Of a DNA stretch of 64,000 bases, positions 15,089 to 49,408 are shown piece by piece. Numbering within the stretch: the first letter of the stretch is position 1; the number at the start of each line of letters is the position of its first letter. This DNA is from Candidatus Oscillibacter excrementigallinarum. GTDB lineage: Bacteria > Bacillota > Clostridia > Oscillospirales > Oscillospiraceae. Made by a program: the position numbers and the translations under genes. The stretch lies in assembly GCA_019118245.1 (NCBI GenBank), contig DWZJ01000005.1, positions 1 to 64,000 of the forward strand, read 5' to 3'. Under the pieces are notes generated by a model. The model saw only the letters and a list, made by a program, of their open reading frames with translations. It ran no database searches and was not told where the DNA came from.

Positions 15089-16468
15089 ATGAAGCCAAAG
15101 ACCCTCTTCTACTGCACGGAGTGCGGCAATGAGATGCCCAAGTGGGCGGGGAAGTGCCCGGCCTGTGGAGCGTGGAATACCATTGTGGAGCAGCCCCAGG
15201 CCGCCAAGGCGGCAGGGAAGGGGGGTGTCTCCCGTCCGGCGGGAGGGGGGACCCTCCGCCGGGCCCGGCCGGTGACGGAGCTGGAGGCGGATGAGGAGAT
15301 CCGGTTCCCCACCGGCATGGGGGAGCTGGACCGGGTCCTGGGCGGCGGCGCCGTCAAGGGTTCCCTGGTGCTGGTGGGCGGCGCGCCGGGAATCGGCAAG
15401 TCCACGCTCATGCTCCAGATCTGCGAGAGCCTGTGCCGGGAGAACAAGGTGCTGTATGTATCCGGCGAGGAGTCGGAGCACCAGTTAAAGCTCCGGGCCC
15501 GGCGGCTGAACGTCCAGAGCGAACGGCTGTTCGTCATCTCCGAGACCAGCCTGGGGGACGTGCTGGAGTCCGTGGCGGCGGAGACGCCGGACGTGCTGAT
15601 CGTGGACTCCATCCAGACCCTTTACAACGACGCCCTGGAGTCCCCGGCCGGCAGCGTCAGCCAGGTGAAGGACTGCACCATGGCTCTCATGCAGCTGGCA
15701 AAAGGGCAGGGCATCACGGTGTTCGTCATCGGACACGTCAACAAGGAGGGCTCCATTGCCGGGCCCAAGGTCCTGGAGCACATGGTGGACTGCGTGCTGT
15801 ACTTCGAGGGGGACCAGCACACCGCCTACCGCATCCTGCGGGCGGCAAAGAACCGCTTCGGCGCCACCAATGAGATCGGCGTCTTTGAGATGCGGGACAG
15901 CGGTCTCCAGGAGGTGGAGAACCCCTCGGAAATGCTGCTGTCCGGCCGGCCGGAGGACGCTCCCGGCACCTGCGTCACCTGTGTGATGGAGGGGGCCCGG
16001 CCGGTGCTGGCGGAGATCCAGGCGCTGGCGGTGTCGTCTCCGGCGGGAAATCCCCGCCGCACCAGCAACGGCTTTGACTACAACCGGTTCGCCATGCTGC
16101 TGGCGGTGCTGGAGAAGCGAGGGGGGCTGAAGGTCTCCGCCTGCGACGCGTACCTGAACATCATCGGCGGGCTGAATCTGGACGAGCCCGCGGCGGACCT
16201 GGCGGCGGTGATCGCCCTGGCCTCCAGCTATCTGGACCGGCCGGTTCCGACGGATCTGGTGGCCATCGGGGAGGTGGGCCTCACCGGGGAGCTGCGGTCC
16301 GTCAGCCAGCTGGGCCAGCGGGTCAGCGAGGTCCGGCGGCTGGGCTTCACCCAGTGTCTTATCCCGTCCCGCCGGACCGGGGAGCTCCCGGCGCCGGAGG
16401 GGCTTCGCCTGATCCCGGTGCGGAATATCGGTGAGGCGATCCGAGCCGCCCTGCGTCCGTCGGGATAA
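15089..16468 (+). CDS. radA: DNA repair protein RadA
   Basis: FYCTECGNEMPKWAGKCPACGAWNT Zn finger, GGAPGIGKSTL Walker A, KNRFGATNEIGVFEM. Confidence 0.97.
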   Translation: MKPKTLFYCTECGNEMPKWAGKCPACGAWNTIVEQPQAAKAAGKGGVSRPAGGGTLRRARPVTELEADEEIRFPTGMGELDRVLGGGAVKGSLVLVGGAPGIGKSTLMLQICESLCRENKVLYVSGEESEHQLKLRARRLNVQSERLFVISETSLGDVLESVAAETPDVLIVDSIQTLYNDALESPAGSVSQVKDCTMALMQLAKGQGITVFVIGHVNKEGSIAGPKVLEHMVDCVLYFEGDQHTAYRILRAAKNRFGATNEIGVFEMRDSGLQEVENPSEMLLSGRPEDAPGTCVTCVMEGARPVLAEIQALAVSSPAGNPRRTSNGFDYNRFAMLLAVLEKRGGLKVSACDAYLNIIGGLNLDEPAADLAAVIALASSYLDRPVPTDLVAIGEVGLTGELRSVSQLGQRVSEVRRLGFTQCLIPSRRTGELPAPEGLRLIPVRNIGEAIRAALRPSG

Positions 16469-47054: not shown

Positions 47055-47125
47055 CGTACTTTTGTTCGATTTTTGCTTGACAGAAACATTTGTTCGAGTT
47101 ACAATACGAATAGAACAAAAGTTCG
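47055..47125 (+). promoter_or_regulatory. SigA-type promoter with three LexA-like boxes
   Basis: Boxes CGTACttttGTTCG (47055-47068), GAAACatttGTTCG (47083-47096), AGAACaaaaGTTCG (47112-47125); -35 TTGACA 47077-47082, 17-bp spacer, -10 TACAAT 47100-47105. Confidence 0.8.
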
Positions 47126-47143
47126 AATAAGGAGGATATTTCC

Positions 47144-47272
47144 ATGAGCGGCTGGACTTTCTTTTTTATTCTGGTGGGCGTGGCCTTTCTGACCTCCCGG
47201 CTCTTCCGGATCATCGACGCCATCGAGCGCCCGGCCCGGCGCCACTCCCGGCGGCGGACCGCCCTCCGGTGA
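47144..47272 (+). CDS. 42-aa single-pass membrane peptide, putative SOS-induced (absent from the ORF track)
   Basis: MSGWTFFFILVGVAFLTSRLFRIIDAIERPARRHSRRRTALR; RBS aaggaggatatttcc; stop is 1 nt before the next ATG. Confidence 0.8.
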   Translation: MSGWTFFFILVGVAFLTSRLFRIIDAIERPARRHSRRRTALR

Positions 47273-47273
47273 G

Positions 47274-48539
47274 ATGGACGTCCTGGAAAAGCTCACCATC
47301 CTGACGGACGCGGCCAAGTACGACGCGGCCTGCACCTCCAGCGGCGGGGACCGGAAGGCCAAGGCGGGATCCATCGGCAACACCTCCACCTCCATCGCCG
47401 GGTGCTGCCACTCCTTCTCCGCCGACGGCCGGTGCGTCACGCTGCTGAAGGTGCTGCTGACCAACCGGTGCGTGTACGACTGCAAATACTGCGTCAACCG
47501 CCGCAGCAACGAGACGAGGCGGGCCATGTTCACCCCGGAGGAGCTGGCGGACCTGACCATCCAGTTCTACCGCCGGAACTACATCGAGGGGCTGTTCCTC
47601 TCCTCCGGCGTATACCGCTCCCCGGACTACACCACGGAGCTGATGATCCGGTCCCTGCGGATCCTGCGGGAGCAGTACCGCTTCAACGGCTACATCCACG
47701 CCAAGGCCATCCCCGGCACATCGCCGGAGCTGGTGGAGCAGCTGGGGTTCCTGGCGGACCGGCTCAGCGTCAACATCGAGCTGCCGTCTGAGGCGGGCCT
47801 CCGGGCCCTGGCCCCGGACAAGACGAAACAGGCCATCCTGGCCCCCATGGGGCAGATCCGGGTGCGGGGCCAGCAGAGCCGGGAGGAGCTGGTGAAGTAC
47901 CGCCATGCCCCCAGGTTCGCCCCCGCCGGCCAGAGCACCCAGCTGATCGTGGGCGCCACGGCGGACACGGACTTTCACATCCTGCGGCTGACCCAGGGAC
48001 TGTACGACCGCTACCGGCTCAAACGGGTGTTCTACTCCGCCTATGTGCCGGTGGTGGAGAATCCCCTGCTGCCGTCGAAGGACACCAAGCCGCCTCTGCT
48101 GCGGGAGCACCGGCTGTACCAGGCGGACTGGCTGCTGCGGTTTTACGGCTTCCGGGCGGAGGAGCTGCTGGACGCGGACCATCCGGACTTCGATGCCCGG
48201 GTGGACCCCAAGTGCAGCTGGGCCCTCCAGCACCTGGACTTCTTCCCGGTGGAGGTGAACCGGGCGGACTACGAGGCCCTGCTGCGGATCCCCGGCGTGG
48301 GGGTGGTCTCCGCCAAGCGCATCCTGGTGTCCCGCCGGACCCGGAAGCTGCGGATCGAGGACCTGCCCAAGCTGGGGGTGGTGATGAAGCGGGCCCAGTA
48401 TTTTCTCACGGCCTCCGGCCGCATGGCGGAGGGCCTGCGGTTCACGCCGGACAGCCTGCTGCGGAACCTGATCGCGGCAGAGCGGCCCTCCCTGCCCCAG
48501 CCGGAGCTGGAGCAGCTGTCCCTGTTCGCCCCTGTGTGA
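47274..48539 (+). CDS. putative DNA modification/repair radical SAM protein with helix-hairpin-helix
   Basis: CVYDCKYC (CX3CX2C) radical SAM motif; RIPGVGVVSAKRILVSRR HhH; TIGR03916-like architecture. Confidence 0.92.
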   Translation: MDVLEKLTILTDAAKYDAACTSSGGDRKAKAGSIGNTSTSIAGCCHSFSADGRCVTLLKVLLTNRCVYDCKYCVNRRSNETRRAMFTPEELADLTIQFYRRNYIEGLFLSSGVYRSPDYTTELMIRSLRILREQYRFNGYIHAKAIPGTSPELVEQLGFLADRLSVNIELPSEAGLRALAPDKTKQAILAPMGQIRVRGQQSREELVKYRHAPRFAPAGQSTQLIVGATADTDFHILRLTQGLYDRYRLKRVFYSAYVPVVENPLLPSKDTKPPLLREHRLYQADWLLRFYGFRAEELLDADHPDFDARVDPKCSWALQHLDFFPVEVNRADYEALLRIPGVGVVSAKRILVSRRTRKLRIEDLPKLGVVMKRAQYFLTASGRMAEGLRFTPDSLLRNLIAAERPSLPQPELEQLSLFAPV

Positions 48540-48550
48540 GGGAGGTCCCC

Positions 48551-49408
48551 ATGACCGAGATGATCTATGAATACGACGGCAGCTTTGAGGGATTCCTCAC
48601 CTGCGTCTTTGAGCGCTACGCCCAAAAAGAAGTCCTCACCGCCATCACCTGCGGTGAGGATATTCAATCCACGCTGTTCCCCGTGCGGACGGTCCTGACG
48701 GACCGGGACCACGCCGCCCGGGTGTACCGGAAGGTGGTCAAGCTGTCCCCGGAGGCGGCGGATCTGCTGCGCCGGGGCTTTCTCACCTGCCTGCCGGAGC
48801 GGGAGATGCACCTCCTCCGGCTGGTGGTGAAGCTGCTGGAGGAGGGCCCCCGCTTCCTCCGGGACCTGTCCGACGAGGCGCTCTACCCGGTCCTGCGGGC
48901 GGTGCGGCACCTGAACGGCGAGGTCCACCAGTACAAGGGCTTCGTCCGCTTCTCCGACCTGGGGGGCGTGCTGGGCGGCGAGATCCAGCCGAAAAACCGG
49001 GTCCTCCCCCTGCTGCGGCAGCACTTCTGCGCCCGGTATCAGAACGAGCGGTTCTTCCTCTACGACCGCACCCACCGGGAGGCGCTGTTCTACGCCGGGG
49101 GCCGATCCGCCATCCGGCCCCTGGAGCAGTTCCAGATGGCGCCGCCGGATGAGGCGGAGGCCCGCTACCGCCTGCTGTGGAAGCGGTTCTACGACACCAT
49201 CGCCATCCGGGAGCGGGAGAACCCCCGCTGCCGCATGACCCACATGCCCAAGCGGTACTGGAACACCATGACGGAGTTCCAGGGGGAGGACTTTTTCAAG
49301 CCGAGAGGGACTCCCGCAGCCGTTTCAGGCCCCGGCGCTCCAGCCGGGATACCTGCACCTGGGACACCCCCAGGATCCGGGCGGTCTGCTCCTGGGTCAG
49401 CCCCTTGA
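48551..49408 (+). CDS. TIGR03915-type putative DNA repair/metabolism protein
   Basis: MTEMIYEYDGSFEGFLTCVFERYAQKE...GGRSAIRPLEQFQ...MPKRYWNTMTEF; paired with the radical SAM gene. Confidence 0.85.
   Translation: MTEMIYEYDGSFEGFLTCVFERYAQKEVLTAITCGEDIQSTLFPVRTVLTDRDHAARVYRKVVKLSPEAADLLRRGFLTCLPEREMHLLRLVVKLLEEGPRFLRDLSDEALYPVLRAVRHLNGEVHQYKGFVRFSDLGGVLGGEIQPKNRVLPLLRQHFCARYQNERFFLYDRTHREALFYAGGRSAIRPLEQFQMAPPDEAEARYRLLWKRFYDTIAIRERENPRCRMTHMPKRYWNTMTEFQGEDFFKPRGTPAAVSGPGAPAGIPAPGTPPGSGRSAPGSAP

Follow-up and report, generated by a model that had tools for sequence, protein, structure and literature searches.

The window considered here, that is the whole analysed stretch of 64,000 nucleotides from the gut bacterium Candidatus Oscillibacter excrementigallinarum, contains at positions 47055-47125 a promoter that, judging by its sequence, is very likely under LexA control. 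It may with good confidence be regarded as the LexA-controlled promoter of a translationally coupled operon encoding a small membrane peptide and two putative repair proteins (Table 1); this estimate leaves aside the role of the peptide in cell division, which is weighed separately below. Conservation of the boxes and the promoter, selection acting on the peptide and the contrast in Shine-Dalgarno strength were obtained by sequence comparison; what we infer is that LexA binds, that damage induces the operon, that translation is coupled and what chemistry the repair proteins perform.

Table 1. Elements of the predicted LexA-controlled operon and of its promoter (positions in the window)
Feature	Position	Strand	Description and basis
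LexA-type box 1	47055..47068	.	CGTACTTTTGTTCG, 1 mismatch; 5' of -35
-35 hexamer TTGACA	47077..47082	+	sequence and promoter scoring
LexA-type box 2	47083..47096	.	GAAACATTTGTTCG, 2 mismatches; within promoter spacer
-10 hexamer TACAAT	47100..47105	+	sequence and promoter scoring
LexA-type box 3	47112..47125	.	AGAACAAAAGTTCG, 1 mismatch; covers expected transcription start
Shine-Dalgarno AAGGAGG of small ORF	47129..47135	+	sequence
Small ORF, 42-aa single-helix peptide	47144..47272	+	MSGWTFFFILVGVAFLTSRLFRIIDAIERPARRHSRRRTALR, no known family; sequence, profile searches, conservation, structure prediction
TIGR03916 rSAM_link_UDG, putative DNA modification/repair radical SAM protein	47274..48539	+	profile; start without Shine-Dalgarno
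TIGR03915 / DUF4130 putative DNA repair protein	48551..49408	+	profile matches

The original prediction described a near-perfect SigA promoter TTGACA-N17-TACAAT, and the hexamers at 47077-47105, separated by a 17-bp spacer, indeed agree with the consensus at 11 of 12 positions. The three boxes announced there with 1, 2 and 1 mismatches (counted against the consensus CGAACNNNNGTTCG) were found as described, and GTTCG is unbroken in all of them. Their placement was also confirmed by the coordinates: box 2, expected right after the -35 element, starts with the very next base and occupies 14 of the 17 spacer bases, while box 3, expected just downstream of the -10 element, begins 6 bases past it and includes the anticipated start site. 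The distance from box to box is 28 bp and then 29 bp. That this promoter drives the genes at 47144-49408 is supported as well, no terminator having been found on the + strand in between. The identity of these genes, the conserved peptide among their products and the probable translational coupling go beyond the original prediction.

Since the loose consensus was not enriched across the window (20 matches observed against 27.8 expected) and a perfect 14-bp LexA consensus, most probably a chance match, is present at 15520-15533 inside an ORF with weak similarity to RecA, agreement with the consensus taken alone is weak evidence. Genome-wide, the 14-bp form with one mismatch allowed likewise showed no enrichment (34 sites versus 70 in the reversed control). 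Clustering of the boxes is another matter: when the 176-bp intergenic region was shuffled with its dinucleotides preserved, only 5 of 20,000 sequences had three or more sites. In the organism's own 2.4-Mb genome the refined core ACWWWWGTTCG was found 7 times, and three of these occurrences fall into 47055-47125; the AT-core form of the box, unlike the loose 14-bp consensus, separates true sites.

The same genome (2.41 Mb in 108 contigs, searched by pattern with the reversed motif as a control) encodes a LexA recognized by TIGR00498 with 206.5 bits, and the solved structures closest to it are LexA repressors. The box in the lexA promoter, GGAACAAATGTTTG, is near-identical to those of the window and has AAACATTTGTTC in common with box 2. 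The ACWWWWGTTCG core is also present upstream of uvrB, whose product was confirmed as UvrB, and in a promoter at C52:4077 ahead of genes reading as DUF1385, prmC, recA and recX, among which recA was confirmed and the other three names were read from sequence. A further site, at C41:7227, has no SOS gene nearby and was taken as chance. The form GAACWWWWGTT gave 10 matches against 1 in the reversed control and GAACRNWYGTTY gave 11 against 1, the latter adding sites at a UvrD-type helicase, a YpsA/SLOG gene, an apparent prfB and an apparent integrase; for the YpsA/SLOG gene, the prfB-like gene and the helicase the LexA-type boxes lie at the promoters (L176, L177 and L178, near position 1501). One more LexA-type box was registered about 200 bp 5' of a gene reading as mraZ (L023:1501-1511, i.e. 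G000:C55:31351-31361); the cluster of division genes begins with mraZ, and it would be remarkable if such genes were under SOS control. A perfect GAACAAATGTTC accompanied by a second half-box was observed in an intergenic region of an apparent integrated mobile element (L180:1501-1560, G000:C107).

Decisive for the reality of the boxes is their conservation in relatives. The comparison covered 80 named loci that carry a gene related to the radical-SAM gene, nearly all from Oscillospiraceae, and the footprint set was formed by 57 promoters, including that of the window, which have the 17-bp spacer and the small ORF downstream. In this set TTGAC of the -35 element is invariant and its last A nearly so, box 2 keeps an identical register in 56 promoters and box 3 in 47, while the background rate of boxes is 6e-4 per position. 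Box 1 was recorded in about 33 of the 57 (not more than one mismatch to GAACN4GTTC, at -20 to -22 from the start of the -35 element). The weak points are the two mismatches in box 2 and the fact that roughly one half of the relatives have no palindromic box 1. In another 22 loci the small ORF is absent and the promoter stands directly ahead of the radical-SAM gene; 15 of them retain the start-site box in the same register with no more than one mismatch. Boxes at this promoter were also found in some other families of the order. Phylogenetic footprinting of orthologous promoters, the check named in advance, has therefore revealed a box-promoter geometry that is kept in dozens of species. Cultured Oscillibacter valericigenes Sjm18-20 (L078) also has the operon. 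Because the boxes are clustered, the same motif recurs at lexA, at uvrB and in the promoter 5' of recA in a genome having its own LexA, and box 2 keeps its register in 56 of 57 promoters, LexA control is very likely, and the LexA-repressed promoter proposed originally gains support from sequence comparison. A second pair of inverted repeats, of the CGAACGATCGTTAG type, was noticed 5' of the promoter in several loci (L099, L103, L104, L106), approximately at -145 to -105 relative to the start of the radical-SAM gene; perhaps it is an operator of a divergent regulator.

Both downstream genes were assigned by profiles with scores above the curated cut-offs: 649.4 bits versus 343.5 for TIGR03916, covering profile positions 2-415 of 415, 215.6 versus 112.25 for TIGR03915 and 153.2 versus 27 for DUF4130. 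At its 3' end (49296-49408) the TIGR03915 gene runs antisense over the end of a convergent SigF-type sigma gene, and a similar extension was observed in several relatives. The strength of the Shine-Dalgarno duplex at the radical-SAM start varies with the presence of the small ORF: its median energy is -3.0 kcal/mol with this ORF (n=59) and -10.8 kcal/mol without it (n=22), the difference having a Mann-Whitney p ~1e-11 in a statistic that ignores the relatedness of the loci. For the small ORF's own start the median is -11.2 kcal/mol, and its stop codon is separated from the radical-SAM start by -22 to +12 nt. As the radical-SAM Shine-Dalgarno is missing when the small ORF is present and strong when it is absent, translation of the radical-SAM gene is probably coupled to that of the peptide gene. 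As far as we found in the open-access literature, such coupling has not been described.

Of 81 loci, 58 carry the small ORF: besides the window, 57 others have one that is homologous or lies at a similar place, 32-75 aa long. Its consensus MTGWTxFFxLVGVxFLTxQLFRxIDxIERPxRR is conserved position by position, and a diverged subset reads like MAASTTIFVLLGITAATVNMMKVILYFDQP. Over 48 peptide sequences the median dN/dS is 0.16, and no such pattern is observed in the other two frames; by this comparison of sequences the peptide is under purifying selection. On the gene tree two changes explain the distribution of the ORF, most simply as a single gain and a single loss. The clade of 22 loci that lack the peptide retains the repair genes behind a promoter of similar kind, so that repair as such does not require the peptide; in 18 genomes possessing the radical-SAM gene but no adjoining peptide, neither the peptide elsewhere nor a replacement was found. 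Prediction from the single sequence, without an alignment, gave one helix at residues 3-40 with a mean pLDDT of 81. Since the first half is hydrophobic and the second basic, this model is consistent with a single-pass membrane peptide with its C-terminus in the cytosol. No Pfam or NCBIfam family matched it, and all matches in PHROGs, having E >= 0.04, were discounted. We found no description of this peptide in the open-access literature and to that extent consider it new.

A profile search in 201 genomes of the family revealed peptide matches in 15 of them. Further copies reside in mobile-element-like neighbourhoods of related genomes (L162, L164, L165, L167 and L168, near position 1501), often directly after a gene that ends in a stretch like SSRxDxxALKxALPD...RRFxVA. 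For one of these preceding genes no Pfam match was obtained, and its likeness to phage recombination genes, seen in the sequence, is unproved. In the organism's own genome a 29-aa peptide-like ORF, MITWGLVLVGICTLTSGLFRLVDRIEGRR, is flanked by an HTH gene and a gene of replication type (L166:1489-1578, - strand, G000:C105). A tblastn search of phages with one mobile-element variant found nothing, and for all these short copies the likeness in sequence is only suggestive of homology.

Based on these data one can propose that LexA dimers on the three boxes, i.e. 5' of the -35 element, in the spacer and at the start site, would exclude SigA RNA polymerase from the promoter. After DNA damage, cleavage of LexA stimulated by RecA would release a tricistronic mRNA, on which the membrane peptide of approximately 42 aa is followed by the radical-SAM repair gene and then by TIGR03915/DUF4130. 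Since the radical-SAM gene has no ribosome site of its own, its translation would be coupled to that of the small ORF. The peptide and the repair proteins would be made together after damage. The peptide itself probably acts in the damage response, and its most likely role, proposed tentatively and by analogy, is that of an SOS-induced bitopic membrane peptide delaying division during repair in the manner of YneA, SosA or SidA. This role is favoured because the use of small integral membrane proteins to block late steps of division is described as widespread in SOS responses (PMC13396833), with YneA, SosA, SidA and ChiZ as SOS-induced membrane division inhibitors (PMC13396833, PMC6851548). The likeness would lie in small size, a single predicted helix that may span the membrane and a LexA-type promoter; in contrast to them, the peptide has no Pfam, NCBIfam or convincing PHROGs match, its effect on division would follow from analogy, and as far as tested it is not homologous to YneA, SosA or SidA. 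YneA needs a LysM domain, and the 42-aa peptide, having no Pfam match, lacks one. A more far-reaching version, which we regard as doubtful, is that the peptide founds a new SOS checkpoint family of Oscillospiraceae, defined by the helix and LFRxIDxIExP, which blocks division, is translationally coupled to the radical-SAM enzyme and includes relatives carried by mobile elements. If so, these relatives would serve the element during damage of the host.

The main rival to the division role, in itself unlikely, is a membrane-active dormancy peptide, which after SOS induction would lower the membrane potential and slow growth, as do TisB and DinQ. These SOS-induced single-transmembrane peptides of E. 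coli are comparable in size and in having one helix, and DinQ (27 aa), which resides in the inner membrane and depolarises it, is also under LexA control (PMC3567139); the basic tail following the predicted helix fits this possibility as well. Yet the peptide described here, unlike DinQ and TisB, heads a protein-coding repair operon and has a strong ribosome site, while the LFRxIDxIExP motif conserved behind the helix speaks for a particular protein partner and not for a simple pore. At first sight no antisense RNA, the antitoxin of type I systems such as those of TisB and DinQ, was apparent. Less probable still, the small ORF may mainly be a coupling leader, which sets the level of the radical-SAM protein and encodes a peptide of little function. 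Loss of the Shine-Dalgarno only in the presence of the small ORF and the proximity of stop and start are in line with this, but the low dN/dS and position-specific conservation show that the peptide is selected, and related peptides exist elsewhere without the radical-SAM gene. We give the same low rank to the assumption that the peptide brings the radical-SAM/DUF4130 proteins to the membrane or controls them there, for instance as an anchor: a common transcript and coupled translation, both probable, and the conserved basic tail agree with it, whereas the peptide-less clade keeps the repair genes and peptide-like ORFs occur elsewhere without them. Finally, it is very improbable that the boxes bind some other repressor with a GAAC-N4-GTTC-like site, since, even though the assignment to LexA is made from sequence and a second, weaker LexA_DNA_bind match exists in the genome (C24), the same box at lexA, at uvrB and in the promoter 5' of recA is the signature of a LexA that regulates its own gene along with an SOS regulon.

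TIGR03916 is presumably the same radical-SAM family as COG4277. A LexA-regulated COG1573-COG4277 repair operon, composed of uracil-DNA glycosylase and its partner, is known in Bacteroidetes and was reported in Verrucomicrobia and Alphaproteobacteria (PMC8565304). SOS control of apparently the same family would be shared with the operon studied here, and LexA control of this family thus seems to be already known elsewhere; the present operon differs in having the peptide, TIGR03916 and TIGR03915, a Gram-positive box and no adjacent uracil-DNA glycosylase, the sole match to which in this genome is on another contig. With the LexA regulon of Bacillus and Clostridium (GAAC-N4-GTTC; for C. difficile see PMC4234289) it shares the box, lexA autoregulation and sites at uvrB and in the recA region, but it stands out by having three boxes, held in a fixed register about a single promoter, and a leader gene for a small peptide. 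In the portion of PMC3765255 considered here DUF4130 is predicted to go together with radical SAM proteins of the SplB-like type and with uracil-DNA glycosylases, which is the same pairing of radical SAM and DUF4130, and the peptide is not described in that portion.

SOS checkpoints in Oscillospiraceae are largely unstudied: an open-access full-text search found no paper on Oscillibacter, LexA and the SOS response together, and a similar search found none naming TIGR03916 or TIGR03915 and a single one naming DUF4130. Judging by sequence comparison, an SOS promoter appears to switch on two DNA-repair-type genes and a conserved membrane peptide in the Oscillibacter group. The operon offers a way to approach what TIGR03916/TIGR03915 do, a radical-SAM/DUF4130 repair pair of which little is understood, and provides a concrete candidate for the division checkpoint that is still missing.
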